NCBI GenBank assembly: GCA_030524175.1
Contig: JAUNHC010000035.1
Location: 1-61,558, forward strand
Origin: Eubacteriales bacterium
Lineage (GTDB): Bacteria > Bacillota > Clostridia > Lachnospirales > Lachnospiraceae
Length of the DNA stretch: 61,558 nucleotides
Direction: 5' to 3'
This document shows, piece by piece, positions 15,015-56,881 of this stretch. The number at the start of each line of letters is the position of its first letter. The first letter of the stretch is position 1. The position numbers and the translations under genes are program-made. A model generated the notes under the pieces. That model worked only from the letters and a program-made list of their open reading frames with translations. It made no database searches and was not told the DNA's origin.

Positions 15015-16271
15015 CTAGCTGATCTGCTTTTCCAACAGCTCATTGACCGTATTTGCCCAGTCATCTTTGGTGGTGGCCCCCATAACCGTTTTGATCACTT
15101 CACCTTTGTCGTTGAGGAAAAAACTGGTAGGGAAGGCAGTCACGTCCGGCAGAATGTCAGACTGAAGCTTTTCTCCGGGGATGATGTTCGTATAGGTAAC
15201 ACCGGTCTTTTCCACGATCTCTTTTGCCAGATCTAACTGATCCTGGCCTACCTCTCCTTTCTCGTTTACCACATCGGCTGCGATTCCCACGACCTTGAAA
15301 TTTTTCCCTGCAGCGGCAAATTCCTTGTTCAGCTCTTCCAAGTGAGGCATTTCCTCCAGACAGGGATTACAGAAGGTGGCCCAGACGTTCACCATCGTGA
15401 CTCCGTCTTTTGCCAGCAGATCCTCCGGCAGGGCTTTGCCGTCCAGGTCGGTCCCGTCCAGTGCAACATCCTGGAACAGTTCATTGCTGTCCGCGTAAGT
15501 CATCTCTGCGCTGGAATCGCTTGCCAGCATTGCTTTCATGTCATATTCCTTTAAGATTGCCGAAGCCTGCTCTACCAGCTTTTTCGCCTCCTCAGCAGTG
15601 GCGCAGGTGACAGTGTTTCCAAGGAAATAGCCGTCTTTACTGGTACCGGTCAGCTTAACCACATCTTCGGTAGTTACGAAGATCTCATACAGCGGTGCAT
15701 TTTCTTCCGTGAGTCCTCCCACCTTGCCTTTTTCGCTATAGCCGTACAGTCCGGTGATCTCATACTCTGCCTTGCCAAGCGGCGTATCCACAGTTACCTT
15801 ATCGCCCACCTTTTTTCCCATACTTTCCGCCATAGAAGCCGGGATCACACAGCCGCCGGTGGAACCGTCTGCCGGGACCTTGCCCTCCGTCAGCTCATAA
15901 GTGACAAACAGTCCGTTTTCCTCCAGTTCAGGCTCTCCGCTGAGGAGCAGATCCTTATTGTCAGCCAAAGATACATTGTCAATATAACCTGAGATATGGT
16001 TTGGGCATTCCATTCCGGGCAGTTCCATTACTTTTTTCCATGTATCATAGCTGAGTTTCTTATCCGCTGTGAAACGGACACTGCAGTCCATCAGTTTCTG
16101 GTCTTCCTCACTGATAGGATCCTCTTGTACGATATCGCTTATGTCCGGTGCCGGGCTGTCACTGTCTGCAGATGCGGACTCAGATGAGGAAGTGGCGGCA
16201 GAGGAGGTGCCGCAGACAGCAAGGGAAATTGTCAGGCCTAAGGCCAGGAATAATGTAGATAATTTTTTCAT
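15015..16271 (-). CDS. Lipoprotein fusing an FtsX-type extracellular domain to a TlpA-like thioredoxin
   Basis: The 418-residue protein has an N-terminal signal with a candidate lipid Cys20 (SLAVC; Val at -1 is atypical). A Ser-rich linker follows, then residues about 60-250 resemble the extracellular core (MacB_PCD-like) of FtsX permeases: CVIPASMAESMGKKVGDKVT and YEITGLYGYSEKGK. Residues about 270-418 are a TlpA-like thioredoxin with WATFCNPCLEEMPHLEEL (Cys301, Cys304) and the cis-Pro region AFPTSFF. Thioredoxins of this class reduce or exchange disulfides outside the membrane. It is followed by a Fe-S membrane protein, a CXXC microprotein and an ABC/FtsX pair, so it likely works with them. 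Confidence 0.88.
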   Translation of the reverse strand: MKKLSTLFLALGLTISLAVCGTSSAATSSSESASADSDSPAPDISDIVQEDPISEEDQKLMDCSVRFTADKKLSYDTWKKVMELPGMECPNHISGYIDNVSLADNKDLLLSGEPELEENGLFVTYELTEGKVPADGSTGGCVIPASMAESMGKKVGDKVTVDTPLGKAEYEITGLYGYSEKGKVGGLTEENAPLYEIFVTTEDVVKLTGTSKDGYFLGNTVTCATAEEAKKLVEQASAILKEYDMKAMLASDSSAEMTYADSNELFQDVALDGTDLDGKALPEDLLAKDGVTMVNVWATFCNPCLEEMPHLEELNKEFAAAGKNFKVVGIAADVVNEKGEVGQDQLDLAKEIVEKTGVTYTNIIPGEKLQSDILPDVTAFPTSFFLNDKGEVIKTVMGATTKDDWANTVNELLEKQIS

Positions 16272-36940: not shown

Positions 36941-38734
36941 CTACTCGTTAATACTTATTTCCGTATATCCATGATTGCTGATTTTCACTGTTGGTTCGCC
37001 ACTACCCAAACGATATGTTTTAGTCCATCCGGCAGGTAACACAATTTCACCACGGCAGGAAGATACATCCAATTTAAGATTTTGCGGCATTTGATTGAAA
37101 ATTAGTTCACATTCTCCTTCACTCGTTACTGAAATATCGCTGGAAATGACAGCCGCTATGATAGATACACTTCCAGAAAGATTGTTTATATGATATATCC
37201 CTTTGGATATATCCGTATCGGAAAGTGAAATTGAGCTATCATCAGCTTCTATACTAATCGCTGCATTGAAATCTGGTAGGGTCACGGGTGCTCCATCAAG
37301 TGTCAGGGTAATCTTTTCAAACTCTTTATCAGGTATACCAATCTGAACCACATTGGAATAGTTCGGGCCGCTTTCATCAATATAATAATGCCCAGCGGTG
37401 GCCAGGGCCGCTGTTCCGTCAACAACTATTTGTAAAACATTATCAGTCGCCATTGTGTAATTGACTTTGAACTTTGTTGTGTCAGTAATACCCAAATAGT
37501 CAAGCGTAAACTTTCCATTGTCTGATTTAACCAGTTCAATCCCGCAACTATCTACTGTTAGCGTGATAGACTTTACGTTATTTGCTTCTAAATCCTCTAA
37601 TGCAGAAATCGGCGTTGTCGTAATTGTTGGGGCTTCTATATTGCTCGGTGTATTGGGCTTTTCGGTATTGCCAATAGATACTGGCGGCATTTGCGTCTTT
37701 GCATAGGCACCTATGGCCGTTGCACCTGTCACCATTAGGAGCGTGATAGTGAGCGTAATAGTTAGCATTATTTTTGATGTTCTCTTATATTTCATGATCG
37801 CCTCTAACCTTTCTTTCAATAGTTCCTTACTTTCATTGAGAGTCACAGAAGCAAGGGAATTTTTGTAGCTTCCCCCGTCCAATATCGCGTTTATCAGTGT
37901 ATCGCCATAGGCCCGCCGTCCTTGTGGTTCAAGCGCCTTGATAACTGCTTCATCACAGGCAAGCTCACACGCCCGGCCCACTTCCCGACCCATCACATAG
38001 ACGATTGGGTTAAACCAGTGCAGGCAGATAACAAGCTGAACCAACCACTTATAAAACATATCCCGCCGCTTGTAATGCGTCAGTTCGTGCAGGATGGTAT
38101 TTTCAAAATCGGCGGGTGCAAGAGCGGTGGTGGGGAGCACGATACAAGGGCGAAAAAAGCCAAGCAACAACGGCGAGGAAATGAGGCTGTTTGTGCATAA
38201 GTCTACTGGCCTTTTAACGCCTGCTTGCTCTCCGATCAGCGCCAAACGGTCTAAAATCGCCGTGTTGGAAACCTCCGCGCGTCCAGCCCTGATATATTTC
38301 ACAAAACCTTGGTAGATTGTAATTTTCCGTATTATCAGAATAAGCGCCACTACCAGCCAAACAAGCCAAAGATTTTGTATAAGAACTGTAAAAATACTTT
38401 GTAGTGTTGGTGCGGCTTCCGTTTCCCCATTTTTCGGAGCAGTATCATTCTTAACCGCTGTATCATCTCCCGATTGGGGGGCGGGCGCTATATTTTGTCC
38501 GGGAGTGGTGTCCGTCTGCACAATCACACGGTCTACCTGCTGGAACAGAGTGCCGACGGGACTTGTCTCCGGCGTAAACGGCAAGAGCAGACGGGCGATT
38601 ACCACCAGCCAGATATAATACTGCCAACGCTTGCTAATCCTGTTCCTGATTAGGGGCTTGCAGAGAAGAAGAACAAGAATTAACAGCGACCCGGAAAGGG
38701 AGAGCGACAAGACAATTTTCAATATCTCGTTCAT
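36941..38734 (-). CDS. BlaR1-like M56 metallopeptidase with a beta-helix-like sensor
   Basis: The 597-residue protein has N-terminal membrane helices and the M56 zinc protease motif HELTHYKRRD (His216, Glu217, His220). After the fourth helix (about 325-345) the extracellular part (about 380-597) is rich in short Asp/Ser/Ile repeats and resembles DUF4097-like beta-helical domains. It is not the penicillin-binding domain of true BlaR1. The expected role is to sense an envelope signal and trigger removal of the BlaI-like repressor encoded just upstream. Start and repressor stop overlap (ATGA). Confidence 0.9.
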   Translation of the reverse strand: MNEILKIVLSLSLSGSLLILVLLLCKPLIRNRISKRWQYYIWLVVIARLLLPFTPETSPVGTLFQQVDRVIVQTDTTPGQNIAPAPQSGDDTAVKNDTAPKNGETEAAPTLQSIFTVLIQNLWLVWLVVALILIIRKITIYQGFVKYIRAGRAEVSNTAILDRLALIGEQAGVKRPVDLCTNSLISSPLLLGFFRPCIVLPTTALAPADFENTILHELTHYKRRDMFYKWLVQLVICLHWFNPIVYVMGREVGRACELACDEAVIKALEPQGRRAYGDTLINAILDGGSYKNSLASVTLNESKELLKERLEAIMKYKRTSKIMLTITLTITLLMVTGATAIGAYAKTQMPPVSIGNTEKPNTPSNIEAPTITTTPISALEDLEANNVKSITLTVDSCGIELVKSDNGKFTLDYLGITDTTKFKVNYTMATDNVLQIVVDGTAALATAGHYYIDESGPNYSNVVQIGIPDKEFEKITLTLDGAPVTLPDFNAAISIEADDSSISLSDTDISKGIYHINNLSGSVSIIAAVISSDISVTSEGECELIFNQMPQNLKLDVSSCRGEIVLPAGWTKTYRLGSGEPTVKISNHGYTEISINE

Positions 38735-41008: not shown

Positions 41009-42142
41009 TTACTGGAAACAGTAGGGCGGCAGTACAATGGATTCGGCCTCATAGATACCTCCGGCGAGGAGCTTTTCTTTTCCGGCCTTAAAGATATCAA
41101 GTGCCAGGCGCTGCAGCTCTGTTGAAAACAGCTCCGCATCTTTTTCTTCCAGACTTTTCAGCAGGACTGTAGTTGAGCGTGGATCAAATCTGAAAGCATA
41201 GGGCTTTACGTCATTGAGTGGATAACCCAGATACTGAAAGTACATCAGTCCGTCCAATATCTCTCTCAACGCAGGTGACTGCGCTTGTTCTCTCAGAAGG
41301 TTAAAACAGACGCCAAAGGCCATGTAGTAATCCTTGGAGACCTGAATGTTTTGCAGCCAGGATATGGTTCCCTGAATGGAACGCTCTGATAGCGTGGGAA
41401 AAACAACCCGGGCAACATCTTTGCAGATGATCAGGATGATCTGCATGCTCTGCAGATATTGGAGCAAAGCTTTTTTCAGATTCGGGGTGGAAAACTTAGA
41501 AATTGGCGCAGGGTTATCCAATCCCACCAGCACACGCGTTCCTTTTCCGGGGATAGTTTCTACAATTCCAATGTCGCTGAGTATTTTTACAGCCCGGCGG
41601 ACTGTTATCAATGGCATAGAATATTCTTTTGCCAGAGAAGTAAAGGCGGGGAGGAATTCCAGGTTCCCAAAAGAGGAATAAATCTTCCGGAGAAGCTTCA
41701 TAGCCAGGTTAAAACTCACCAGGGGACGTTCGGAAAAATAATTCCATTCATATGGGATCGGTTCAACCGGAACCTGCGGCAGGGGCAGCGACTCGTGGTA
41801 TAGGCGTATGGCTTCAATCTGTTTCTGGTAAAGACGAACAAGCAGATCTTTTAGCTGCCCGTAGTCAGATGTCTGGCATAGAGAAAGTATCTGTGCGGTC
41901 TCTCTTTTTAAATAGGTCATATAACCATAGACATATGCTTTATCCCCCAGATGCATGATCGTGGAGTGGCCAAATAAACTTGTGCTCATATATAAATTGA
42001 GAAACAGAGGATTTCCCAGTACATTCAGGATTTGAAAGAAAAATTCAAAAAACGGATATTCGTTATAGGGCGACATCCCCTTAAAGATCTCTGTGAGTTT
42101 TTTTATATCATTGTCACCACACAAAACTGGGCAGCCTATCAA
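41009..42142 (-). CDS. GntR-type regulator, probably truncated at the N-terminus
   Basis: The 377-residue product has a GntR winged helix in its middle (FLPAFTSLAKEYSMPLITVR, then GIVETIPGKGTRVLV) and a long helical C-terminus. Its relative at 42743-44194 has the same central HTH and C-terminus but also a second HTH at its N-terminus; this copy instead begins MIGCPVLCGDNDIKKLTEIF, in the region after that first HTH. Its start lies 5 bp from the start of the divergent chemoreceptor fragment and has no clear ribosome binding site or promoter. It is therefore likely a 5'-truncated gene. It could still be translated from an internal start. Confidence 0.7.
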   Translation of the reverse strand: MIGCPVLCGDNDIKKLTEIFKGMSPYNEYPFFEFFFQILNVLGNPLFLNLYMSTSLFGHSTIMHLGDKAYVYGYMTYLKRETAQILSLCQTSDYGQLKDLLVRLYQKQIEAIRLYHESLPLPQVPVEPIPYEWNYFSERPLVSFNLAMKLLRKIYSSFGNLEFLPAFTSLAKEYSMPLITVRRAVKILSDIGIVETIPGKGTRVLVGLDNPAPISKFSTPNLKKALLQYLQSMQIILIICKDVARVVFPTLSERSIQGTISWLQNIQVSKDYYMAFGVCFNLLREQAQSPALREILDGLMYFQYLGYPLNDVKPYAFRFDPRSTTVLLKSLEEKDAELFSTELQRLALDIFKAGKEKLLAGGIYEAESIVLPPYCFQ

Positions 42143-42742: not shown

Positions 42743-44194
42743 TTACGCTTCGTCCGGAATGAGAATATTTCCTGCCCCCGGAATCTTAAGTTTGAACAAA
42801 GAATCCATGGTCTGTCGAAACTCATGGAGCATCAATTCTTCCAAAACCACTGAGAACCGGGAATGATCTCCTTTTTCCAAAGCACAGGTTATCTTATCAT
42901 AATAGGGATCATATATGGCGTTTATGGTGTCCTGTTCCTTGTTCATTCCCCGCAGGGCATAAGCCCAAAAGAACTGGCGGAGCAGTTCAGAGTAAACAGT
43001 ACGGATGGCTTGATAAGGGGCGTGTTGCGCAATAAGATTTATTATGAAATAAGAAAAAGTCTCACCGCGCTGTCTTTTTTTATGCAGCTTTATTTTACTG
43101 CATAATTCCTGAATCTGCCGGGCATCAAGATGAGAAAGCGTCAGCCGGGACACATCCCTACAGGACAGAGTGAATACCTGAATGCTCTCCGCCATATCCA
43201 CGAGCCGCCTCTGAAGAACAGGCTTGGTAAAATCACTGTTGGCTGTGGCCTGATCAAAGGGAAGAACCTGTGTGCCCACGTATCTGTAAGACTTTATGGC
43301 CCCCACACTGTGCAGAAGCTCCAGTGCCCGGCGCACCGTACTCACAGAAACACCTTTTTGCTCTGCAAGCTCCTTTTGGGAGGGCAGGAGACTTCCGGGG
43401 GGATACACACCCTGACTGATGGACAGGAGCAGTTCCATGGCAAGAGAATAGCATAGCTGCTGGCTTTTTTTATAGGAACTCCAGGTAAAAGTTATCTCCT
43501 TTTCCGGGGACGGCATAGTGATCCTTGCTTTGTAAAACCGGTTAAGAGATAAAGAGAGCATGTCAATGGATTCATTTATTATAGTGCGCAGTGAAGGCCA
43601 GTCCTTTTCCCGGCAATAGGTCGAAAGTTTTGGAACATAATCGCCAAATCCGTCAAAATACTGCAGATTATCTTCTATGCTCAAAAAGGGGTTATGCAAA
43701 AACATAAAGGTCTGCCATGCCAGGCGCATGAGCAGAGAGTTTCCGAGAGAGGCGTATTTCTGGTTAAGCTGTTTCAGCATAGCGTAAGGGGCTTTCGCAT
43801 CTTTTTCCTGGTTAAGCTGTTCCATGGCCTGCAGTGTTGTCATGGAAATGTTTTTTAGTCCGTACCACTGGGCATTGCCAAATAAAGGCTTCATGGAAAG
43901 TCCAAGGTCAGTCATTGCATTTTTGCGGACTGAAAAAAAGGTCTGTATAAATTCTTCTGTTTCCTCAGCATTGTACCTGACTTTAACCGTAGCGCCTACA
44001 TTCTTTGACAGGGTAATATAACCTTGTTCCTTAAGTTTCAGGTATGCAGCGCGGGCAGTATCGACCGATACATGGAGCTGTGTACTGGTCTCCTCTATGG
44101 TAGGAAGCTTGTCTCCGCCATGACAGACGCCGAATTGTATCTGGTTAAGCAGAACGCTTGTAACTACCGTGCGCAATTCTGTGCTGTTATTCAA
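42743..44194 (-). CDS. Regulator with two GntR winged-helix domains
   Basis: The 483-residue product has one GntR HTH at the N-terminus (LPTIEETSTQLHVSVDTARA with LKEQGYITLSKNVGATVKV) and a second in the middle (LLPSQKELAEQKGVSVSTVR with VGAIKSYRYVGTQVLPF), separated by a helical region of about 180 residues, with another helical region after. Ordinary GntR proteins have only one HTH. The start is TTG 44194 preceded by GGAGGAATCAAT. It is divergent from the hybrid kinase gene at 44374, the probable target. The shorter relative at 41009 lacks the first HTH. Confidence 0.88.
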   Translation of the reverse strand: MNNSTELRTVVTSVLLNQIQFGVCHGGDKLPTIEETSTQLHVSVDTARAAYLKLKEQGYITLSKNVGATVKVRYNAEETEEFIQTFFSVRKNAMTDLGLSMKPLFGNAQWYGLKNISMTTLQAMEQLNQEKDAKAPYAMLKQLNQKYASLGNSLLMRLAWQTFMFLHNPFLSIEDNLQYFDGFGDYVPKLSTYCREKDWPSLRTIINESIDMLSLSLNRFYKARITMPSPEKEITFTWSSYKKSQQLCYSLAMELLLSISQGVYPPGSLLPSQKELAEQKGVSVSTVRRALELLHSVGAIKSYRYVGTQVLPFDQATANSDFTKPVLQRRLVDMAESIQVFTLSCRDVSRLTLSHLDARQIQELCSKIKLHKKRQRGETFSYFIINLIAQHAPYQAIRTVYSELLRQFFWAYALRGMNKEQDTINAIYDPYYDKITCALEKGDHSRFSVVLEELMLHEFRQTMDSLFKLKIPGAGNILIPDEA

Positions 44195-44295
44195 ATTGAT
44201 TCCTCCATTTTCAACGATTTTATAACCTATAATAGATTCAGTATATCATTTTTCTGGTGGTGTTTCTATAATTCATTCCAAATTTCGGTTCACAG

Positions 44296-44324
44296 TTGCT
44301 ATTTTCAATGTTATTTGCTATACT
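44296..44324 (+). promoter_or_regulatory. Promoter of the hybrid kinase gene
   Basis: TTGCTA (44296-44301), a 17-bp spacer and TATACT (44319-44324) with an extended TGC box (44316-44318) form a good promoter in the gap between the divergent GntR and kinase genes. Confidence 0.75.
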
Positions 44325-44373
44325 CAGAATAAATATGTATGTGAACAATAGGGGCTGTAAGGAGTTAAAATAG

Positions 44374-47019
44374 ATGCGGAAATATAGCAAAAACAAGGAT
44401 TATTCTGTAGGCCGGAGTCAACAGATCAGTATAGTCAGTACCGTGATACTTATAGTTCTTATGCTGTGCTATCTGGTGATGACTGTCAGCAATTCCTCCA
44501 GTCTGGCGGCACAGACGGAAATCATATCCAATCACCCTTTTGAGGTGGTGATCTCAGCAGGAGATATCAAACTTTATGTGTCAGAGATGAGCCTGCGCAC
44601 AGACCGGCTGAAACGCCATCACAACAGTGAAGATATACGCATTGCCGGAGATAAGCTGGAAGAATTGGAGGGTTCCCTGGAGGAACCGGTTTCTCGTTTG
44701 GAAGAATTATATTTAGGCCAGAAGGAGGATGTACAGGCGCTCAGAAGTACCCTTGTATTTTTACAGACGGAGCAGGATATTTATCTTGAGTTCTGTAAAC
44801 AGGAGGAGCTGACTGAGGAGGATATAGAGACTTATGTGGAAGAGCATCTGCAGCCTGTTTATGACCGTGCCCTGGAGCAGGCAGACGGAATCATTTCAGT
44901 TGCCCAGGAGAAAAAGGTAAGCTATGGCATTACTGCGGAAAGACTGCGTCTCATGAACCTGAACGGTTCCATTTTGCTCATGGGACTGATGGTGGCTGTG
45001 CTGTTGGTTTCTCAATTTGTCCTGCACCGTCAGCGGAAGGAACTGGTTTACCGCAGTAAGCTTTTTGATAACTTGTCCCTGAGTATTGACGATGCGTTTA
45101 TTATCAGGGATGCAGAAACAGGGGTTGTAAGTTACTGCGGACTTAATCTGGAGCGGATACTGGGAATCAATACCATGGATATGCAGAGTATTTGCAAGGG
45201 ACTGAAGGAAGAGGATATCCAGGCATTCAGGAAGGGAGTCAGTGATATCAGGGTTGATTTTCCCTTTGAAAGACTGGTAGAGTACACAAAACCCAATAAG
45301 GAAAAAAGTTGGATGCTCGTCCGTATATACCGTGTGGAGGACATGAAAGCACCGCAGTTAATTACTGTATTTTCCGACCGCACAGGTGAAGTACAGTCGC
45401 GCCAAGTGCTGCAGGCGGCCATGCTCACTGCCGAGCGCGCAAATATGGCGAAAAGTGAGTTCCTGTCCCGGATGAGCCATGAGATCCGTACCCCTCTCAA
45501 TGCTATTATTGGTATGACCACTATTGCGGCAGCTTCTGTCAGGGACCCTGCCAGGGTGGAAGACTGCCTGTCAAAAATCACATTTTCCTCCAAGCATTTG
45601 CTGATGCTGATCAATGATGTGCTGGATATGTCAAAAATCGAGAGCAATAAAATGATGCTGCACGACGATCCCTTTGATATCTTTGAAATTGTCAATGGGT
45701 TTGTTTCTACTGTTTATGCCCAGGCAAAAGGAAAAGGGATTGAGTTTTATGAGACTATGGAGGGATTTGGAGACAATACTGTTTTTATAGGGGATTCCCT
45801 TCGGTTAAACCAAATCCTTTTAAATCTCAGTTCCAATGCTGTGAAATTTACTCCTCCGGGCGGGAGCATCCGCCTGAATGTTTCAAGGCATAAAATTGGA
45901 AATACCACAGATGTTCTCCGTTTTATTCTCTCCGATACAGGAATCGGCATGACGAAAGAAACTGTTGAGCGGATTTTCCAGCCCTTTGAACAGGCTGATG
46001 CCTCTATCGCTAAACGCTTTGGGGGGACAGGACTTGGCATGTCCATTACCAAAAATCTCATCGTTCTCATGGGCGGCCAGATCCAGGTAGAGAGTGAGCC
46101 TGGGGTGGGAACAACCTGTATAGTGGATCTGCCGTTCCAAAAGGGAGAAGAGAGCTGTCTGCCGGAGCCTGATTTTGCCCGGCAGGGTCTGCGGGCTTTG
46201 ATCGTGGATGATGACAGGCAGGTGTGTGAGCAGACTGCTGTTCTTCTGGAAAAAATTAAGATTGATGCACAATGGTGCTTGTCTGGTTCCGACGGTGTGG
46301 AACGGGTGAAGGAAACACACCGGGAGGGCAAAGATATTGACCTGTGTCTCATTGACTGGAAAATGCCGGATATGGATGGTGTTGAGGTGGCACGCCGTAT
46401 CCGCCGTGAGGTTGGAAACGATGTTCCTATTGTAATGATTTCAGCGTACGATATCTCTGAAGTGGAAGAAGAAGCGCGGGCGGCGGGGGTTAACGGGTTC
46501 CTTCCCAAGCCTCTTTACCGGTCTTCTGTCTATGCTGCGATTAAGGAGGCACTGGAGCACAAGGGGCAGCTGATCACTCACCAGGAGAAAAAAACATCAG
46601 AAAAACCTTTGGAAGGTTTCCATTTGCTGATGGCAGAAGATAATGTTTTGAACCAGGAGATTGGGGCAACACTGCTGCGTATGAATGGGGCGGCAGTAGA
46701 ATGTGTGGAGGACGGACAGCAGGCACTGGAGGTATTCCTCAGATCCAGGCCGGGGGATTACGATGCAATTCTTATGGATGTACAGATGCCGGTTATGGAT
46801 GGGCATGAAGCCACGAAGCATATCCGGGCCTCTGCTCATCCCCAGGCTTACACAATCCCTATCATCGCCACAACTGCCAATGCTTTCAGCGATGATATCT
46901 CTGCTGCGCTGGCAGCCGGGATGAATGCTCATGTGAGCAAACCGCTGGACGTGGTGCAGCTTTGTAAAACACTCAGGGACTGTATCAGCAGAGCGGACAG
47001 CAGGAAACAAGGATTGTAA
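44374..47019 (+). CDS. Hybrid sensor histidine kinase with two receivers
   Basis: The 881-residue protein has membrane helices at about 18-38 and 197-217 around a helical extracellular domain, a PAS-like segment (about 225-335), HisKA with [15 protein letters not shown] (His369), HATPase ([34 protein letters not shown]), and two receivers: Asp661 in LCLIDWKMPDMDGVE and Asp802 in [12 protein letters not shown]. Both receivers look active. It lies divergent from the double-GntR gene and is followed by a terminator, so it is transcribed on its own. It probably signals to the adjoining operon at 47286, whose first product has a receiver. Confidence 0.95.
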   Translation: MRKYSKNKDYSVGRSQQISIVSTVILIVLMLCYLVMTVSNSSSLAAQTEIISNHPFEVVISAGDIKLYVSEMSLRTDRLKRHHNSEDIRIAGDKLEELEGSLEEPVSRLEELYLGQKEDVQALRSTLVFLQTEQDIYLEFCKQEELTEEDIETYVEEHLQPVYDRALEQADGIISVAQEKKVSYGITAERLRLMNLNGSILLMGLMVAVLLVSQFVLHRQRKELVYRSKLFDNLSLSIDDAFIIRDAETGVVSYCGLNLERILGINTMDMQSICKGLKEEDIQAFRKGVSDIRVDFPFERLVEYTKPNKEKSWMLVRIYRVEDMKAPQLITVFSDRTGEVQSRQVLQAAMLTAERANMAKSEFLSRMSHEIRTPLNAIIGMTTIAAASVRDPARVEDCLSKITFSSKHLLMLINDVLDMSKIESNKMMLHDDPFDIFEIVNGFVSTVYAQAKGKGIEFYETMEGFGDNTVFIGDSLRLNQILLNLSSNAVKFTPPGGSIRLNVSRHKIGNTTDVLRFILSDTGIGMTKETVERIFQPFEQADASIAKRFGGTGLGMSITKNLIVLMGGQIQVESEPGVGTTCIVDLPFQKGEESCLPEPDFARQGLRALIVDDDRQVCEQTAVLLEKIKIDAQWCLSGSDGVERVKETHREGKDIDLCLIDWKMPDMDGVEVARRIRREVGNDVPIVMISAYDISEVEEEARAAGVNGFLPKPLYRSSVYAAIKEALEHKGQLITHQEKKTSEKPLEGFHLLMAEDNVLNQEIGATLLRMNGAAVECVEDGQQALEVFLRSRPGDYDAILMDVQMPVMDGHEATKHIRASAHPQAYTIPIIATTANAFSDDISAALAAGMNAHVSKPLDVVQLCKTLRDCISRADSRKQGL

Positions 47020-47037
47020 AATACATAAAAGGATGAA

Positions 47038-47071
47038 GGAAAGATGTCAGTTATCTGGCACCTTTCCTTTT
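47038..47071 (+). terminator. Intrinsic terminator after the first hybrid kinase
   Basis: GGAAAGATGTCAG pairs with CTGGCACCTTTCC (one mismatch, one wobble) around a TTAT loop, followed by six T. Confidence 0.88.
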
Positions 47072-47125
47072 TTGTTACAGCCTGTTTTCCTTGAATAGTG
47101 TGTTCTGTTAAATGACTATTGCCTG

Positions 47126-47285
47126 TTGCAAAAGAGGGGATTTTGCATTATAATAATTTGGATAGGGTTCCAAGAAAAGGCCTGCCAGGATGATCATTTG
47201 GTCTATTACACGCGGAGACAACTTATGATGCCCCGCGTTTTATTCTGAAAGCCTGATTACCTGTATCATAGAGAGGCGATAAATA
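47126..47285 (+). promoter_or_regulatory. Operon promoter and leader with a hairpin
   Basis: TTGCAA (47126-47131), a 17-bp spacer and TATAAT (47149-47154) form a strong promoter. The leader of about 125 nt holds ACGCGG (47210-47215) pairing with CCGCGT (47233-47238), then TTTATT, which could act as an attenuator. The start codon follows GAGAGGCGATAA. Confidence 0.75.
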
Positions 47286-49373
47286 ATGAACAAAAAAGTA
47301 AAGAGCCAAAAAGAAAAGATTCTCATTGCAGATGATTCTGAAATCAACCGGGCATTGTTAGCAGATATTTTATCTCCGGACTATGAGGTTTTAGAAGCAT
47401 GTGACGGAGAAGAAGCCGTGGCTTGTCTGGAACAGCAGCATACTCAAATCGCTCTGGCCATATTGGATATTATGATGCCAAAACTGGACGGTTTTGATGT
47501 GCTGGCAGTCATGAACCTGAAGGGCTGGATCCACAGCATCCCTGTCATCATTGTCTCGGCAGAAACATCACCTTCATATATTGATCATGCCTATCAACTG
47601 GGCGCTTCAGAATACATCAACAGGCCGTTTTACAAAGTGGCCGTACGTCACCGCATTGAAAACACGGTCAAACTCCATGCCAAACAAAAGTATCTGGAAC
47701 ATATTGTGGGGGAGCAGATATTTGAGAAAGAGAAAAGCAATATGGTGATGGTGGACATTCTCAGCCATATTGTAGAATTCCGCAATGGTGAGAGCGGTCT
47801 TCATGTACTTCATATCCGCACCATAACAGAAATATTGCTTAAGCAGTTAAGCCATAACTGCAGCACATATGATTTGTCTCCGTCAAGGATCGCACTTATC
47901 ACCAATGCCTCAAGTCTCCATGATATTGGGAAGATTTCCATACCTGAGGATATCCTTAATAAACCGGGGAAATTAACGAAGGAAGAATTTGAAATAATTA
48001 AAACCCACAGTGAAGTGGGTGCGCAGATGCTGGAGGGCCTTATATACTATCAGGATGAAGCTCTGGTGCAGACGGCAAGAGATATCTGCCGTTGGCATCA
48101 CGAACGGTATGATGGCAGTGGTTATCCGGACGGATTAAAAGGCGATGAAATTCCCATTTCTGCACAGGTGGTAGCCATTGCAGACGTGTATGACGCCTTG
48201 ACCAGCAAACGTGTATACAAGCCGGCTTATTCCCATAAGATGGCAATGGATATGATTTTAAACGGGGAGTGCGGCCAGTTTAATCCTTTACTTCTTGATT
48301 GCCTGAAAGAAGTGGGAGATTATCTGCAAAACCAAGTCAAAATCCGGTCAGCGGGGAAAATCACCAGTGATTCTATCCATACGCTGGCTTATGATGCAAT
48401 TCACAGCTATAACGTATCTGACAGGACTTTAGACCTGCTGGAGCAGGAGCGGACCAAGTATCAGTTTTATGCTTCTATGACAAAAGAAATCCAGTTTGAG
48501 TACAGCTATGAGACCGACACACTCATTCTTTCGGAGTGGGGGGCTGCCCAGGCAGGGGTAAAAGAGTACATACCTCATCCCCAAAGCGACCCCGCATTGC
48601 TTCAGATATTTTCCAAAGAAGATTTTTGTGACCTTGTGGAGCGCCTGAAAAGTGCAGTACCCCAAAACCCTATTGTCAGCCAATTATACCGTTTGACCAT
48701 CCACGGCAAGCCGCGATGGTACAAATGGATAGCCCGTCCCATTTGGGGGCTGGATGAAGATATACCTCCAACAAAGGTTATCGGGAAATTGGTGGATAAC
48801 CAGGAGGAACAGAGCACTCTGGAAAAGCTTACCCTGCAGGCACAGAGGGATGACCTGACAGAACTGCTAAGCAGAAATCATGCTTACGATGAAATCGTAC
48901 AGCGTCTTTCAAATTTGAAAACCCCCAAGGCGGCCCTGATCATTCTGGATCTTGATACATTTAAAAATGTGAATGACAGCTATGGACATTCTTATGGGGA
49001 TCAAATGTTGAGAGCCTTTGCAGATCGCTTGAAGAGCAGTGTCCGCAATTCAGATATCGTGGCCCGGATCGGAGGCGACGAGTTTTTGGTGTATATGGAA
49101 TTTAAAGAAAATATCGAAAAGCTGGCAGAGCGTATTTTTCACAGGATATCCGGCACTTATGAGGGATTTGACATTTCAGTAAGCATGGGGATTGCCCAGG
49201 CACCGGAAAACGGCGCTACTTACGAAGAACTCTTTTTGTGTGCGGATCAAGCATTATATGCCTGCAAGCAGGCTGGGAGAAATGAGTGGCGTTTTTATGA
49301 TAAATCCATGGAGACGATTTTATCGTCCTACTCCCGGCAGGATTCGGAAGGAAATGAGGAGGAAACGATATGA
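47286..49373 (+). CDS. REC-HD-GYP-GGDEF response regulator (c-di-GMP enzyme)
   Basis: The 695-residue protein has a receiver (KILIADDSEINRALLADILS, Asp61 in LDIMMPKLDG), an HD-GYP phosphodiesterase (HDIGK at 212-216, HHERYDGSGYPDGLKGDEIP at about 271-290), a PAS-like part (about 395-505) and a C-terminal GGDEF diguanylate cyclase (GGDEF at 596-600). The product-inhibition I-site RxxD (RNSD, 587-590) lies five residues before GGDEF. Both enzyme halves look intact, so phosphorylation could tip the balance between making and degrading c-di-GMP. It is the first gene of the operon and overlaps the next by 4 bp. Confidence 0.95.
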   Translation: MNKKVKSQKEKILIADDSEINRALLADILSPDYEVLEACDGEEAVACLEQQHTQIALAILDIMMPKLDGFDVLAVMNLKGWIHSIPVIIVSAETSPSYIDHAYQLGASEYINRPFYKVAVRHRIENTVKLHAKQKYLEHIVGEQIFEKEKSNMVMVDILSHIVEFRNGESGLHVLHIRTITEILLKQLSHNCSTYDLSPSRIALITNASSLHDIGKISIPEDILNKPGKLTKEEFEIIKTHSEVGAQMLEGLIYYQDEALVQTARDICRWHHERYDGSGYPDGLKGDEIPISAQVVAIADVYDALTSKRVYKPAYSHKMAMDMILNGECGQFNPLLLDCLKEVGDYLQNQVKIRSAGKITSDSIHTLAYDAIHSYNVSDRTLDLLEQERTKYQFYASMTKEIQFEYSYETDTLILSEWGAAQAGVKEYIPHPQSDPALLQIFSKEDFCDLVERLKSAVPQNPIVSQLYRLTIHGKPRWYKWIARPIWGLDEDIPPTKVIGKLVDNQEEQSTLEKLTLQAQRDDLTELLSRNHAYDEIVQRLSNLKTPKAALIILDLDTFKNVNDSYGHSYGDQMLRAFADRLKSSVRNSDIVARIGGDEFLVYMEFKENIEKLAERIFHRISGTYEGFDISVSMGIAQAPENGATYEELFLCADQALYACKQAGRNEWRFYDKSMETILSSYSRQDSEGNEEETI

Positions 49374-51313
49374 ACCGCAGAGTTATCAGGTGGATCACCT
49401 GTATATTGTGTGCTGTTCTGCTGCTTTCGGTGCTGTCAGGCTGCGAAGGGAAGACAGGAAAAGATAAAACCGTGATCAAAATTCTCTATTCCAACAACTT
49501 TAAACAGGTGGAGGAACTTGTGGAGTCAACCTATGACGATATTGATCTGCAGATAGAACTATCTCCCTATCTTAGTGAACAGATCCGCCGTCTGGAGAGA
49601 GGGGTAGGGCCGGATCTGATTATCACGGCTCAGCCGGATTCCAACCTGGTGCGGAAATATTTGCTGGATATCAGCGACACGAAAGCCAGCGCGGCTTATG
49701 ACGGTACTATTATGAATGCTGCTAAGCTGGATGGAAAAACTTATATGATTCCTTTGCCCGGTGTGTACAGCGGATATGTTGTAAATGAAACACTGTTTGA
49801 GCAGGCGGGTTTGTCTCTGCCCGCAAATAATACAGAATTGGTCACAACTCTATCTGAATTAAAAGAAAAAGGAGTTGGAGTCGGAGAAGACGGTGTCAAT
49901 TTTTCTATCATGAGCGACTACAACACTGCAGTGGGATTGTTCTACGTTGGATATATGGTGCCTGATTTTCTGGGTTCAGTGGAGGGTGTAAAGTGGCTGG
50001 CAGATTTTAAAAATAAAGAGGCTACCTTTACCGGTGTTTGGGAACGAAGCTTCAATCTTTCAGATGCTCTTGTAGATGCCGGCGTCATGGATCCAGCTGA
50101 TATTGCCAGGCAGCGCAATATCGTCCTCTGTAAGAATCGTTTGAGCGACGGGACTCTTGCGGCTGCTTTTGGTGATTCCGCATTATATTATGAGTGTGTC
50201 GCCGGGAACCGGGAAGCGGTTAAGGAAGGGACAGCGGAAGCATATACCTACCGGATGCTGCCGTTTTTCAGCGACGAAGGAAATAACCCCTGGTTCCTTT
50301 TCTCTCCGTCTGCCCTTATGGGAATCAATAACAGCATCAGTGAAGAAAAAAGAGACGCCTGCAAGCGTATACTGGAATTACTTTCCACACCGGAGGGCCA
50401 GGAAGCTTTTATTGAAGATTTAGGCGGGGGTACGTCCTGCCTTACTGATTATGAACAGCAGCAAGATTCCATTCCAAGGGGTGTAGAAGAGTTTGTGGAA
50501 TCGGGATATATTTACAATGTTTTGTTCCCCAGTAAAATAGTTGAATATTTTGGCGGTTACGTGAGGAATATCATGTCCGGCAAATGCTCAGTGGAAGAAG
50601 CCTTGCAGTCTATTGACCGATTCTATTATGAAGATACGGACGAGTCTTCTTATAATTTTTCAGTTATTGGCACGGTAAGCCATGATCTTCTGCTGGAAAA
50701 CTTCAATGTCCGGCGTAAGGAGACTGAACTTGGGAATTTCTTAGCAGACTGTGTTGCCGAAGCTTCCGGTACCTCCATTGCAGTGGTAAACGGCGGCGGG
50801 ATCCGGGCCAGCTTTTATCAAGGGGTGGTCTACGGCGGAGATATTGAGGTGGTGTGCCCCTATGACAACACGATCATTGTACTGGAAATGAATGGACAAA
50901 CCCTGTGGGACATGGTGGAAAACGGATTGTCTACCTGTACAGACGAGTTCCCCAGCGGACGGTTTTTACAGGTTTCCGGGATCCATTATACTTTTGACAG
51001 CAGCCAGCCCGTTGGCAGCAGACTTGTAAGTGTGACAATGCCCGATGGGACTGAACTTGATTTAAATGCCAGCTACCAGGTGGCGGTGACGGATTATATG
51101 GCCGGCTCTAAAACCTATGTGGAAGGAAACGGGGATGGGTATACAATGCTCAATTGTTATGACGATGAAACCCCGAAAGGCAGTGTGGCACTGATAAAGG
51201 AAACCGGGCTCACCTACCGCGATGCTTTAGCGCAGTATTTTGAAAAACATCAGGACAGCGCTGTGGATGTGAATCTTGAAGGAAGAATCACTGATCTGGC
51301 CCAGGAGAAATAA
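49370..51313 (+). CDS. Solute-binding lipoprotein fused to a 5'-nucleotidase C-terminal domain
   Basis: The 647-residue protein has a lipobox (VLSGC, Cys25). Residues about 35-410 form a periplasmic-binding-protein-like domain ([40 protein letters not shown]). Residues about 430-640 match the C-terminal domain of 5'-nucleotidases (PF02872 type): NGGGIRASF (474-482), [13 protein letters not shown] (530-542) and NGDGY (587-591), the parts that bind phosphate and base. The metallophosphoesterase domain that would normally precede this part is missing, so it should bind but not hydrolyse nucleotide. It overlaps the c-di-GMP enzyme gene and precedes two sensor kinases, suggesting a ligand-presenting role. 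Confidence 0.9.
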
Positions 51314-51315
51314 AT

Positions 51316-53907
51316 TTGGCCGGCAGAAAGGATGGGGGATTATTGAAAATTCACAAAAAAAAGAATGAAAAGCAACGGATGCTGGCTTTTATTTCTGGGT
51401 TGATTGTGATGGTTACCATCCTTTGCGTGATAGCGGTTGCAATGTACCAGAAAGTATCAGAACGTACCGTGACCAATATCAGCGGTGTTTACCTTCGGGA
51501 AATGACTGCCCAGCTCAGCAGCCATTTCCAAACGAATCTGGATAGTCAGTTTTCCCAAATCCGTACAGTTACCAACGCAGTATCGGAGAATGAGCTGAAG
51601 GACGAAGAGAGCCTTAAGCGTTTCCTGACACAGGTACAGTCGGATAATGATTTCACCCACATTGCGTTTATCAGTGACAAGGGAATAGCTTATTCTCCCG
51701 AAGGTGTTTTTCCTGCCATGTCTAAAATTTCCGGCCTTGATAAATTGCTGGAAGGCACAGGCGGATTGGTGTCTGTCAACGAGAACATCTGGGAAAGCGG
51801 TACTATCCTGCTGGGTACCAGTATGATTCCTGTGCAGTTTCAGGAAAGCCAATTGGTAGCCGTTATCATTGGTATCCATACTTCCGACATTGGTTTGAAG
51901 CTGGGACTGGACAGTGAGACAGAAACAAATTCTTACACAAATATTGTCACCAGAAACGGGGATTTTGTAATCAAAAGTGCATTTTCAAAAGAAGTTTTAC
52001 AAGGGACAAATCTTTTCACTATTTATGAGCAGCAGGCGGACTTTGACAAAGGTTATGATTACCAGTCCTTCCGCGATTCCGTCAGCGAGGGAGAAAGCGG
52101 TATGACACTGTTGACTGTGGGAACACATCATGTTTACCTTTATTATGTTCCTATTTCCGGAACAGACTGGTATATGGTTACCAGCATGGCATACGAAACA
52201 GTCAACAATCAGATTGTATACCTCAGCCAGTTTATGATACTTGTAGGGGTTGGGATTTTTTGTCTGGTTCTGGGAACAGTGCTTACCTTCTTCTTACTGC
52301 TGAGACGTAATGAAAGACGCAGCAATGCGCTGCTTTTAATGGAAAAAGAACGTGCGGAGACGGCAAACCGTGCGAAAAGCGATTTCCTTTCTCAAATGTC
52401 ACATGAGATCCGTACCCCTCTCAATGGTATCATGGGTATGGCAGAACTGGGAAAAAATCATATCGGCGAGCCCGGCAAGATGCGTAATTGCCTTGATAAG
52501 ATCACGCTTTCGTCAACACACCTTCTCTCTCTGATCAATGATATCCTGGATATGTCAAAAATCGAGAGCGGAAAAATTGAACTTCATTGGGAGCAGTTTG
52601 ATCTGGGACAGCTTCTCCGTGCGCTTACCACTGTATTTCATGTGCAGGCCGTAAACAGGAAGATCGATTTTCAAATTTTTCTTTGCGGTGAGGTCACCGA
52701 GTATCTGGTGGGAGATGCACTTCGTCTTAATCAGATTTTGACCAACCTGCTTTCCAATGCAGTGAAGTTTACGCCTTCCCACGGACATGTGAGTTTAAAG
52801 GTGGAGCAGCTGCGGTGTGATGAAAGTAAAATATGGCTGCGTTTTGAGGTGAGTGATACCGGCCGTGGAATCGCCCCTGAAAATATAGAGCGGGTGTTTG
52901 AAGTTTTCACACAGGAAAACAGCGGGATTGTGCGGCAATACGGAGGCACCGGACTTGGCCTGCCCATTACGAAAAATTTTGTGGAGCTGATGGGCGGCAC
53001 TATCACAGTTTCCAGCGAATTAGGCGTGGGCAGTATCTTCGCAGTGGAGCTGCCTTTTGACTATCCGGCGGATGGAACAGAGGGAAATATGGAGCGCTGC
53101 GGGAACGGCCAGCTTGTCCTGGTTGTAAATCAGATGACAGAATTGAATATACATCTTGCCGATATGCTGAAAAAGGAGAATTTACAGGCAGACTCTGCAT
53201 ATAGCGGGGACACTGCCCTGGAGATGCTCCAAAGAAAGGCACAAACAGGTATACCCTATGAATTATGCTTTGTCAGATGGGATGTTTGTCAGGATATGAA
53301 GCTGTTTGCAGCAGAGCTTAGAAAGCAGGGAGGGAATGCCGGACTTAAAATTATTTTAACCGGGCAGGATCAGGATGAACTTGACGACACTGCTGCTTTG
53401 TGCGGTGCGGATGCTACCTTGTGCCGGCCTGTGTTCCACTCAGATATTGCGGCGCTGATGACAGCACTGACGAATCAGAAGCCTGTGCACCGGAAACTGG
53501 AAAAATCTGCTGTACTTGCCGGTAAACAGGTTCTGGTAGTAGAGGATAATGAAATTAATCTGGACATAGCCTCAGCCCTGCTGCAAGACGCGGGAGCCAT
53601 TGTCGCCACAGCACAAAACGGAAAAGAGGCTGTTACACGTTTTTCCCAATCATCCCAGGGGTTCTATGATTTAATCCTGATGGATGTACAAATGCCGGTC
53701 ATGGACGGATACACTGCAGCCCAGACTATCCGTGCACTTCCCCGTTCTGACGCAGCAGAAATCATAATCATAGCAATGACGGCAAATTCCTTTCATGAGG
53801 ATATCCAAAGATGTCTGGACAGCGGCATGAACGCGCATATTGCTAAACCTTTTATGATGAAAGACATTACAGATACATACACAGCTATATTGGAGGAAAA
53901 TATTTGA
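51316..53907 (+). CDS. Hybrid sensor histidine kinase with one degenerate and one active receiver
   Basis: The 863-residue protein starts at TTG 51316 behind AGGAGA (51303-51308). Helices near 24-44 and 305-328 enclose a Cache-like extracellular domain (about 50-300). HisKA has [15 protein letters not shown] (His363); HATPase has [25 protein letters not shown] and GGTGLGLPI. The first receiver-like domain (about 599-720) has lost its acidic pocket and Asp: N605/Q606 replace the acidic pair, Arg654 stands in the Asp position (LCFVRWDV), and CRP replaces the KP pair. The second receiver is intact (Asp790). It overlaps the next gene by 4 bp. Confidence 0.94.
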
Positions 53908-56000
53908 AACCGATAAATAAAAAACAGTGGCGTACAGTTTTTTTGTTATTGCTTTATGCAGCGGCTGTTACAGTCAGTATTGTCTATGCAGTATCTTACT
54001 TTATGAATAATTCTACGGAACGTGGACTGCTTGCATTTGAACGCTTTTCAGAACAGATCACTTACCGTGTGTCGGATCATCTGAGCAAATATACAGAACA
54101 GATGATATTATTGAAGAGTGAACTTATTGACCGGCAGATTACGGATCTGGATGAAATTCAGCACACCTTCCAGCGCTACCTGGATAATTCTGCGCTGGAA
54201 GGGATCGGCTTTGTCCTGAAAGACGGCACTGCCCGTTCTTATACCGGAGAGATGGAAGTATTTGACGAACCAATAGATGTTTTGGATGTACATAATTATC
54301 CTTATACGGTTACACTTTCTAAAAATGCTGTAAACGGAGAGGATCAGCTGCTGTTCCGTATTCTGTGGGATGGACAAGGGGATGATTCTGCGGTTGCTAT
54401 TTACAGTTATCTGCCCCTAAGCATCATCTCTGATCTGCTCAAGGACACAACATATGGGGATGCAGGCGCCTTTGTGGCGATTGTGGATCATACAGGGAAT
54501 CATCTTTGGAACAGTTCCGACACTCTGGAGGATAAAGAGGGCCATAACGTTATCAGTGATCTGGAGGAATACCGCCTGAACGATGGAGCTACAGCACGGG
54601 AAGTTGCCACACGGCTGGAGCTGCAGCTCTCCGGTTTGGTGACTTACACTGCATTTGGGGAAGAACGTGTGCTGTTTTACGAGCCGCTTGGCTATAATTA
54701 CTGGACCTTGCTTACTATCACACCTCGTGTTTCTGTGCTTAACACAAGTAATGAGATTAAGATGATCCTGGTTTTAACTGCCGGCATCCTGGCCCTTGTG
54801 GTAGTTGCGGTATGGGTGATATACAAAAACCGTAAAATGCAGTTAGCACTGACTGTTGCCCAAAAGGAAAATATTTTTAAAGGAAAATTTCTTTCTAATA
54901 TTTCCCATGAGATCAGAACACCCCTTAACGGAATTTCAGGGACTCTTCATCTGCTGAAAAATTGCGGCCCGGACTCATCTAAGCAAGGAGAGTATGTGCT
55001 TCAAATGGAAGATTCGGTGCAGCAGCTTACTGATATTGTAAACGATGTGCTGGATATGGCAAAAATTGAAAGCGGATACGTAGAAATACAGTCTGAACGA
55101 TTTGATTTGTGTTTATTATGCGAAAAAACATTACGCATATTCGACGCTTCTGTCCAAGAAAAAGGAATTGAACTGCATATGGATCTTTCTAAGCTGAAAA
55201 GCCGTTTCTATGTGGGAGACTCAAAAAAGATCCAGCAGATATTAACAAATCTGCTTTCTAATGCAGTGAAATTTACTGATCAGGGATCAGTTACCCTTTC
55301 ACTGGCGGAAGAACAGAGCGGAGAGATCCGCATCCTTGTGACGGATACCGGATGCGGCATGAAAGATGATTTTCAGAAAATCCTGTTCCAGCCCTTTACC
55401 CAGGAAGACACTACCTACGGCCGTACCCAGGTCGGCACAGGACTGGGGATGTCAATTGTTTCAGAATTAGTCCGGCTTCTGCATGGAACTATTTCAGTGG
55501 AAAGCGCACCGGACGAAGGGACAACTTTTACGGTGGTGCTTCCCCTTAAGACAGACCCTGATCAGGGCGTGACGGAAACAAAGCCGGCACAGCAGCAGGT
55601 TTCCTTAAAAGGAATCCATATTCTTATGGCAGAGGATAATGCCATTAATTCAATGATTGCGGAAGAACTGCTGACGCGGGTGGGTGCAGAGGTAAAAACC
55701 GTGGAAAACGGTCAGTTGGCAGTGGACTATTTTCTGGATCCGTCGGACAAGCCTGTGGATTTGATTTTAATGGATATACGTATGCCTGTGATGGACGGCC
55801 TGGAAGCTGCCCGCCGTATTCGTGCTTCCGGTCACCCACGTGCTGAAAGTGTACCAATTCTGGCACTTACAGCCAACGGACTGGAGGAAGAGAACAAGGA
55901 GATTTTAAATGCGGGCATGAATGAGAGACTTTCTAAGCCGCTCTCAGTTCAGCTTCTCTATGAAACTATTGAATCTTATGTAAAGGGGAATGAAAGATGA
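53904..56000 (+). CDS. Hybrid sensor histidine kinase with one receiver
   Basis: The 698-residue protein starts at TTG 53904 after GGAGG, overlapping the previous stop. Helices at about 12-33 and 286-307 enclose an extracellular Cache-like domain. HisKA has [15 protein letters not shown] (His335), HATPase has [23 protein letters not shown] and GTGLGMSIV, and the receiver has Asp624 in [13 protein letters not shown]. It overlaps the Cache-like membrane protein gene by 4 bp. It is the second kinase of the operon and third of the locus. Confidence 0.95.
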
Positions 56001-56881
56001 GACGAAAAATAGGCCGTATTTGCTGCCTGGTTATGGCTGTGTGCTTTATTTTGTCACTGTGCACCGGCGCTTTCAGTTATTGTACCATGGCAGCAGAATC
56101 CAGCTGTCTCAGTGCACAGGGACAAATCCGAAACAATTTGCAGTCCACTTTGAATTTACTGGAAGTAATATCCCAGGAATCTTGGATGCTTCCGGAAGAT
56201 ATTCCATATCAGGAAAAGGCAGAACGTTTGGATCATTACAATGAAATCTGGGGTTATCAGATGATCCGGGCTGTGGATACGTCCGGGGGTGTTTATCGTG
56301 CTGACCATGAAGAGGCAGTATCCAATTTAAACAGCCGGGAATATATCCAGACCTTGTGGGTTACAGACGAGCCGCAGATTACGGATGTTTTTCTCGCCGG
56401 CGCAGACGGCACTACACTGAATTATACGGTTGCGATGGCGGTTGCCGGCAATGCCCAGGACAACGGCGCCGTATTTGCTGCCATTTATGACAGCGATATG
56501 CGGGCAGTTTTGGCATCACAGCCCATGCATACTATTTTGCTGGGCAAAAACCAACAATGTATGTCGGGCAATGATGAATCATTTCTGGGCATTACCTTGG
56601 AATCCCGGCTTCAGGGTAAAAAAATCTTCGGCGAAAGCTTGGAATCCGCTTTGCTCCGGGTGAAAAATGAGGAGAGCGGGACTATTTGGTTTCTGGACGG
56701 AATCATACCAACCTGTTACGCCTTTCAAAACGTGGGACTGGACAGCGGCTGGACGGTTCTTACATCCGCGTCATACGCAGATGTGAATGGTCTGCTGATA
56801 CCTGCAGTCGTGATTTCCGTAATCGGAATCCTTGTTTCCATTGCCGTTTTTATCTTTCTGGGACGGCGTTCTGAAAAGTAA
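55997..56881 (+). CDS. Membrane-anchored Cache-like sensor without output domain
   Basis: The 294-residue protein has an N-terminal helix (about 9-30), an extracellular domain (about 35-262) with Cache-like features (MIRAVDTSGGVYRADHEEAV, NSREYIQTLWVTDEPQITDV, GLDSGWTVLTSASYADVN), a second helix (about 264-288) and only six further residues. No kinase, HAMP or enzyme part follows. It resembles the sensor portion of the preceding kinases, so it probably partners with one of them in trans. It is the last gene of the operon and overlaps the kinase stop as ATGA. Confidence 0.85.
   Translation: MRRKIGRICCLVMAVCFILSLCTGAFSYCTMAAESSCLSAQGQIRNNLQSTLNLLEVISQESWMLPEDIPYQEKAERLDHYNEIWGYQMIRAVDTSGGVYRADHEEAVSNLNSREYIQTLWVTDEPQITDVFLAGADGTTLNYTVAMAVAGNAQDNGAVFAAIYDSDMRAVLASQPMHTILLGKNQQCMSGNDESFLGITLESRLQGKKIFGESLESALLRVKNEESGTIWFLDGIIPTCYAFQNVGLDSGWTVLTSASYADVNGLLIPAVVISVIGILVSIAVFIFLGRRSEK

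Follow-up and report, generated by a model that had tools for sequence, protein, structure and literature searches.

A five-gene operon of a Lachnospiraceae genome encoding the parts of a candidate phosphorelay from a lipoprotein to a cyclic di-GMP enzyme

The stretch of DNA analysed here, called the window below, is the whole 61,558-nucleotide contig JAUNHC010000035.1 of a Eubacteriales bacterium of the family Lachnospiraceae (GCA_030524175.1), and corresponds to contig C49 in a genome of 5.95 Mb (119 contigs, 90.7% complete). The system in question is a unit of five genes on the plus strand (47286-56881), which code for an enzyme of cyclic di-GMP (c-di-GMP) metabolism with receiver (REC), HD-GYP and GGDEF domains, a lipoprotein combining a solute-binding protein (SBP) domain with a 5'-nucleotidase (5NT) C-terminal domain, two hybrid histidine kinases (HK2 and HK3) and a membrane-bound Cache sensor. 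In three relatives the operon begins with a gene for a histidine phosphotransfer (HPt) protein, which is missing here. All the open reading frames named in an earlier note on this DNA were found in place, with the domains assigned to them. The features of the operon are as follows.

47122..47175, plus strand: promoter block of the operon with TTGCAA-17-TATAAT, conserved in three relatives
47176..47285, plus strand: position at which three relatives carry an HPt gene of about 370 bases, absent in the window
47286..49373, plus strand: REC-HD-GYP-GGDEF response regulator (Pfam domains; a PAS-like middle stretch is guessed)
49370..51313, plus strand: lipoprotein with a lipobox, SBP domain (residues 68-360) and 5NT C-terminal domain (5_nucleotid_C, residues 432-581)
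51316..53907, plus strand: hybrid kinase HK2, with a weakly matched dCache_1 ectodomain, HisKA, HATPase, a middle receiver and a C-terminal REC
53904..56000, plus strand: hybrid kinase HK3 (HisKA-HATPase-REC), its ectodomain flanked by two predicted membrane helices
55997..56881, plus strand: Cache sensor-only membrane protein of dCache fold, cytoplasmic output domain absent

The promoter element TTGCAA-17-TATAAT is located at 47126-47154, inside a conserved block of 54 bases. The scan for promoter consensus alone was weak (39 sites against 29.1 expected from shuffling). The 54-base block was detected immediately 5' of the gene that opens the operon in the relatives, with 49 of 54 positions identical in Murimonas, 41/54 in G149 and 38/54 in Eisenbergiella, the runner-up placements in these three loci reaching only 27-29. 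The shared promoter for five genes proposed in the earlier note is supported by its conservation. Neighbouring genes overlap by 4 bases at three of the internal junctions (49370, 53904 and 55997). At the fourth, the lipoprotein and HK2 genes are separated by a gap of 2 bases, or of about 29 bases with an HK2 start at 51343, which is probable judging from the start position in the relatives. The overlap of all five genes given in the earlier note therefore applies to three junctions and fails between lipoprotein and HK2, and the stoichiometric expression deduced from it does not follow from gene overlaps. With regard to a riboswitch, no Rfam family reached its gathering score anywhere in the window, and there were only two weak matches of unlikely families (E 0.14 and 0.58) at E ≤1 in 43900-47400. 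The leader folded no better than shuffles (z −0.59), and no terminator was apparent after the last gene, the segment 56875-56935 folding worse than shuffles.

For the conservation of this arrangement, a search with the window copy gave seven related loci (L005-L011), 72-79% identical. The lipoprotein was searched against 397 genomes of the family at E ≤1e-60, of which 14 matched (own genome counted), and against 392 genomes of the order at E ≤1e-80, of which five matched, one of them new and belonging to another family (G653). The neighbourhoods were examined in G653 and in 12 of the 13 other family genomes, G220 being left out with its lipoprotein gene split across two contigs. After removal of duplicates (L006, L007 and L008 come from genomes G046, G250 and G015, respectively), a set of 18 intact lipoprotein loci was obtained: the window, L005-L011, L037-L045 and L071. 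L005 is Eisenbergiella tayi, L007 is Murimonas intestini and L038 is from genome G149; the majority of the named relatives of the operon are Lachnospiraceae.

In all 18 loci, with identity down to 38%, the HK2 gene lies directly 3' of the lipoprotein gene on the same strand. The loci form two deep clades, ten at ≥70% and eight at about 40% identity, between which the kinase core is kept at 45-54% and the kinase ectodomain at 28-31%. The five-gene layout was found in the window, L005, L007 and L038, that is, in 4 of 18 loci; the close clade has nine loci besides the window, and three of them show it. The conserved neighbourhood on which the earlier note had staked its proposal is therefore present, as an invariable lipoprotein/HK2 pair and as the full layout in three other loci. 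The latter three carry an extra GntR-like gene after HK2. A double-GntR gene occupies this position in 8 of 10 close-clade loci, being absent there in the window and L008, and in none of the eight loci of the other clade, where the contigs L039 and L043 stop within 450 bases of HK2.

The REC-HD-GYP-GGDEF gene is not found beside the pair in the remaining 14 loci, four of which have different GGDEF genes nearby. A REC-GGDEF gene was observed directly 5' of the pair at L040:9343-10719, and other GGDEF or EAL genes near the pair at L009:16071-20347, L011:5364-9670 and L008:14728-15765. The loci with the five-gene layout did not form a single clade: 4 changes are required on the lipoprotein tree, compared with an average of 3.8 after shuffling, so that the extra genes have likely been lost or exchanged. 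Both the 14 loci and the scatter of the extra genes on the tree would fit a functional unit made of the lipoprotein and HK2, plus the following double-GntR protein, with gene regulation via an HPt in trans as the output, while the enzyme, HK3 and the Cache protein would constitute a separate module sharing the transcript in some strains. We consider this unlikely, since the extra genes, where present, are arranged alike and in the same position in four genera, and since the SBP-5NT_C lipoprotein of L060 and the SBP lipoprotein of L068 also occur together with an HPt and a REC-HD-GYP-GGDEF gene.

The C-terminal domain of the lipoprotein matches the 5'-nucleotidase of Thermus (2z1a, E 6.7e-29), CD73 and UshA. 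Its pocket positions align to those of the Thermus enzyme, in agreement with a 5NT C-terminal domain, and R448, N474, R479, Y/F498, Y576 and D589 are kept in 18/18 loci. Two Phe pocket positions of 5'-nucleotidases are Tyr in the window lipoprotein. The residues R448, N474, R479, Y498, Y576 and D589 correspond to what we take to be the nucleoside-contact positions of CD73 and UshA. Pfam matched no metallophosphatase (catalytic nucleotidase) domain in the lipoprotein, which thus differs from the 5'-nucleotidase family in its N-terminal part. Because the catalytic domain is absent, binding without hydrolysis is expected, and the sequence suggests that the lipoprotein may bind a ligand of nucleoside type; the 'nucleotide-type' sensing put forward in the earlier note is plausible in view of the conserved pocket.

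The SBP domain resembles the carbohydrate binders BlMnBP1, MsmE and maltose-binding protein, and also 3quf, so that sugar is possible as ligand; a sugar, a nucleotide and a sugar-nucleotide may each be considered. The ligand could accordingly be a carbohydrate or oligosaccharide held on the SBP domain, with the 5NT domain acting as a structural spacer or docking part, and an SBP-kinase-regulator trio for cellobiose has been described in Ruminiclostridium (CuaDSR; available part of PMC10384115). Between the clades, however, conservation is higher for the 5NT domain (45-52% identity) than for the SBP domain (34-37%), and the six pocket positions are kept in kind. We therefore regard a carbohydrate ligand as possible, if not the choice that we would make. 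The idea of the kinase and Cache ectodomains as purine sensors was dropped: the dCache_1PU motif Y-R/K-W-F-D/N, with its spacing taken from the McpH residue numbers in the available part of PMC11245519, was absent from the four ectodomain stretches in a simple pattern test, which is not a structural alignment. Nucleotide sensing would consequently depend on the lipoprotein.

For HK2, the dCache_1 match is below the Pfam cut-off, and the middle receiver is degenerate by reading. The Cache protein gave no Pfam match, and its predicted model (predicted local distance difference test score, pLDDT, 81.9) adopts a dCache fold, with 131 Protein Data Bank (PDB) chains matched at E ≤0.001, chemoreceptor dCache sensor domains being at the top. 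Since the chain stops after the second membrane helix, this protein is a sensor that lacks an output part. The orthologous proteins of L005, L007 and L038 consist of 296-306 residues, and its distant kin (27-28%) are Cache-GGDEF proteins.

The enzyme retains all the motifs in intact form, HDIGK and HHERYDGSGYP, the RxxD I-site and GGDEF. Its middle stretch, where Pfam found no match, is PAS-like as a guess. The usual conserved Lys of the receiver is replaced by Arg in the window enzyme, one of 15 such cases among the 18 REC-HD-GYP-GGDEF proteins that were aligned (window, L005, L007, L053-L065, L068 and L072), Lys being present in L058, L059 and L063.

In all three relatives with the five-gene layout (L005, L007 and L038), a stand-alone HPt gene, matching Pfam Hpt above the cut-off, follows the promoter block and precedes the REC-HD-GYP-GGDEF gene. 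In the window, 110 bases separate the block from the start codon of the enzyme, as against 456 in Murimonas. No hidden HPt was detected in the leader by six-frame translation of 46991-47300 and tblastn with two HPts; a 28-residue match there represents the promoter region, which in Murimonas by coincidence shares the reading frame of the HPt gene that starts 3' of it. No relic of the HPt 3' end is claimed, as 19-20 of 32 positions were identical against a best chance value of 18-19 (30 kb), partly within the ribosome-binding site. Either the HPt gene was lost from the window copy or it never entered; loss is the simpler reading because the other three loci of the layout carry the gene. The earlier note had the hybrid kinases phosphorylating the enzyme receiver directly. 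As the operons of the relatives (3/3) begin with an HPt gene, this direct transfer within the operon was set aside, and a relay from kinase REC to HPt to enzyme REC is implied instead.

The association of HPt and enzyme was counted over 19 REC-HD-GYP-GGDEF loci, comprising 15 fetched regions, the three relatives and the window; among the 19 enzyme regions fetched, four (L066, L067, L069 and L070) were excluded for their order GGDEF-REC-HD-GYP, without HPt. L071, fetched along with them, is one of the lipoprotein loci and was counted there. Further enzyme matches, such as G741, G736, G756:C150 and most REC-HD-GYP-only matches, stand outside this count. An HPt gene was present in the same cluster at 15 of the 19 loci, as immediate neighbour in 14, and absent at the window, L054, L056 and L057. 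By mode of selection, the HPt neighbour was found in 5/8 loci chosen with HPt positions known and in 7/7 chosen blind. The His is invariant in 15/15 HPts. The locus L060:1880-12756, from the genus of the window, carries in a row HPt, REC-HD-GYP-GGDEF, double GntR, a hybrid kinase, a distant SBP-5NT_C lipoprotein (5_nucleotid_C, E 9.5e-14) and an adjoining SBP-type hybrid kinase with SBP_bac_3 domains. L068 has a GntR-type gene, REC-HD-GYP-GGDEF, another SBP lipoprotein and a hybrid kinase, followed by HPt.

Elsewhere in the window genome, two Hpt matches were found, a frame of 686 residues, apparently CheA-like, and a stand-alone protein of 116 residues on contig C51. The latter is the only full-length match to the operon HPt subfamily in its own genome (E 2.1e-32), and lies on a contig without HD_5 match. 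The genome contains 67 HisKA and 41 GGDEF matches (66 and 40 above the cut-offs); given 67 HisKA matches and one such HPt, the C51 protein may serve several hybrid kinases. If it does not serve this operon, the system could be uncoupled in the window genome, the kinases no longer reaching an enzyme that is constitutive or driven through its middle domain. This agrees with the absence of the HPt gene from the stretch joining the conserved promoter to the enzyme gene, and with the location of the only other HPt of the subfamily away from any HD_5 match. On the other side, the operon genes are intact and show no sign of decay: for all five, the L007 protein is no more distant from its orthologue in the window than from that in L005, and divergence is no faster than that of the relatives. 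In addition, an HPt of the same subfamily does exist on C51, and 3 of the 18 other REC-HD-GYP-GGDEF loci likewise have no neighbouring HPt. We judge uncoupling to be unlikely, though worth keeping in mind.

From the gene order, the domains, the intact motifs and the co-inheritance of the lipoprotein and HK2 genes, we infer the protein contacts, the direction of phosphate flow and the identity of the ligand in the following scheme. As the sequences stand, the operon rather probably encodes a multistep phosphorelay from outside to inside, informed by the lipoprotein and setting the level of c-di-GMP. The membrane-anchored SBP-5NT lipoprotein would bind an extracellular ligand, most likely one containing a nucleoside or nucleotide, in the pocket of the 5NT domain, and would dock on the HK2 ectodomain, upon which phosphate would pass from the His of HK2 to the receiver of the same protein. 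In the relatives, the stand-alone HPt encoded first in the operon would hand the phosphate to the enzyme receiver, and the REC-HD-GYP-GGDEF enzyme would then switch between synthesis and breakdown of c-di-GMP. HK3 and the Cache-only protein would add a second input arm to the same relay. In the window genome, the relay would have to use the stand-alone HPt of C51, or else the enzyme would be uncoupled.

Several observations weigh against this scheme. The AlphaFold model of the lipoprotein (8 sequences) has a pLDDT of only 34.3, so that the pocket is known from its sequence, and the pocket residues found no alignment in the distant L060 lipoprotein. The REC-HD-GYP-GGDEF gene stands beside the lipoprotein/HK2 pair in only 4/18 loci, the pair evidently managing without the enzyme; loci of the five-gene layout are dispersed over the lipoprotein tree; and at L038:10975-13014 (G149) a stop codon splits the enzyme frame, separating REC from most of HD-GYP plus GGDEF. 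With the genome 90.7% complete, a further HPt could be missed. Between neighbouring sbp and kinase genes, a functional link is not always present, according to the available part of PMC11113362.

By analogy, the system would work like LuxPQ-LuxU joined to an output of RpfG type, and is filed in neither family. The LuxP-LuxQ-LuxU system of Vibrio consists of an extracytoplasmic SBP, a hybrid kinase, a stand-alone HPt and a response regulator; SBP, hybrid kinase and response regulator are combined in the present operon too, with the HPt in the relatives. Hybrid kinases with HisKA, HATPase and REC and an extracytoplasmic ectodomain were identified by Pfam, with helices by hydropathy. Pfam includes models for LuxQ and LuxP; at E ≤0.01 only dCache_1 and SBP_bac_8/1 appeared, without a LuxQ-type ectodomain or a LuxP-type (ribose-binding-like) SBP, and the NCBIfam LuxQ model scored 289 against its cut-off of 1200 bits. 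A dedicated HPt, like LuxU, is encoded in the operon of the three relatives and absent from that of the window, whose genome has one HPt of the same subfamily elsewhere. Unlike LuxPQ-LuxU, the SBP is of another family and fused to 5NT_C, the output is a c-di-GMP enzyme, and the window operon is devoid of HPt.

RpfG has a REC domain, and by its sequence the present enzyme likewise combines REC with HD-GYP in which the motifs are intact. RpfC-RpfG of Xanthomonas comprises a hybrid kinase with an HPt step and an HD-GYP regulator with c-di-GMP phosphodiesterase activity (available part of PMC5391125). In contrast to that pair, the HPt here is a separate gene, the regulator also has GGDEF, and the sensor is a lipoprotein with a dCache-type ectodomain instead of a short fatty-acid sensor. 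CuaD-CuaS-CuaR of Ruminiclostridium cellulolyticum shares with the operon an SBP gene adjoining kinase and regulator genes, and its SBP binds the kinase; it differs in triggering the expression of cellodextrin uptake genes, and the available part of PMC10384115 does not name a 5NT domain, an HPt or a c-di-GMP enzyme for it. Extracellular purine sensing by dCache_1PU sensors can control c-di-GMP (available part of PMC11245519), but in those sensors the purine is bound directly by the dCache domain, through the motif that the simple pattern test did not find in the operon ectodomains. Each principle is thus already known from LuxPQ-LuxU, RpfC-RpfG or CuaDSR, while the combination and the SBP-5NT fusion receptor were not found described in the open-licence papers listed, among them papers on HPt and HD-GYP relays, as judged by titles and the starts of abstracts.

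Three features precede the operon.

42743..44194, minus strand: double-GntR regulator, divergent from HK1, with two GntR-type winged helices per chain
44374..47019, plus strand: hybrid kinase HK1 (HisKA-HATPase-REC-REC)
47025..47075, plus strand: terminator-like hairpin with T run, 3' of HK1

The hairpin has a folding energy of −19.2 kcal/mol (z −4.19), with 0/200 shuffles equally low. Because of this hairpin and its T run, HK1 is probably a transcription unit of its own. The gene set given in the earlier note is thereby retained as five genes on one promoter, with HK1 probably outside and the HPt gene of the relatives absent. The two halves of the double-GntR protein align with each other (39% over 56 residues), and its orthologue (66%) stands beside an HK1 orthologue only in Murimonas L007 among the seven related loci. 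Nothing relevant to double-GntR proteins was found among the open-licence papers listed. Two adjacent related GntR-type genes lie on the minus strand at 41009-42142 and 42743-44194, the product of the first matching residues 18-374 of the second. Also encoded in the window are a predicted AAA-ATPase with a C-terminal PD-(D/E)XK nuclease domain (3194-5062), a protein with a weak MacB-like match plus a redoxin domain match (15015-16271, minus strand) and a BlaR1-type M56 peptidase (36941-38734, minus strand).

The operon represents a candidate route by which, in gut Clostridia, extracellular nucleotides and nucleosides, which are also danger signals of the host, would be linked to c-di-GMP, with the substrate-binding half of an enzyme apparently reused as a receptor. 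In its boldest form, which is speculative and rather improbable, the proposal would be that a 'headless' 5'-nucleotidase half joined to an SBP is a receptor for extracellular nucleosides or nucleotides in gut Clostridia, driving c-di-GMP through a kinase-HPt relay, and that this lineage dropped its dedicated HPt in favour of a genome-wide hub HPt. The relatives with the HPt gene and the window copy without it may offer a natural test of a phosphorelay surviving the loss of its dedicated HPt.

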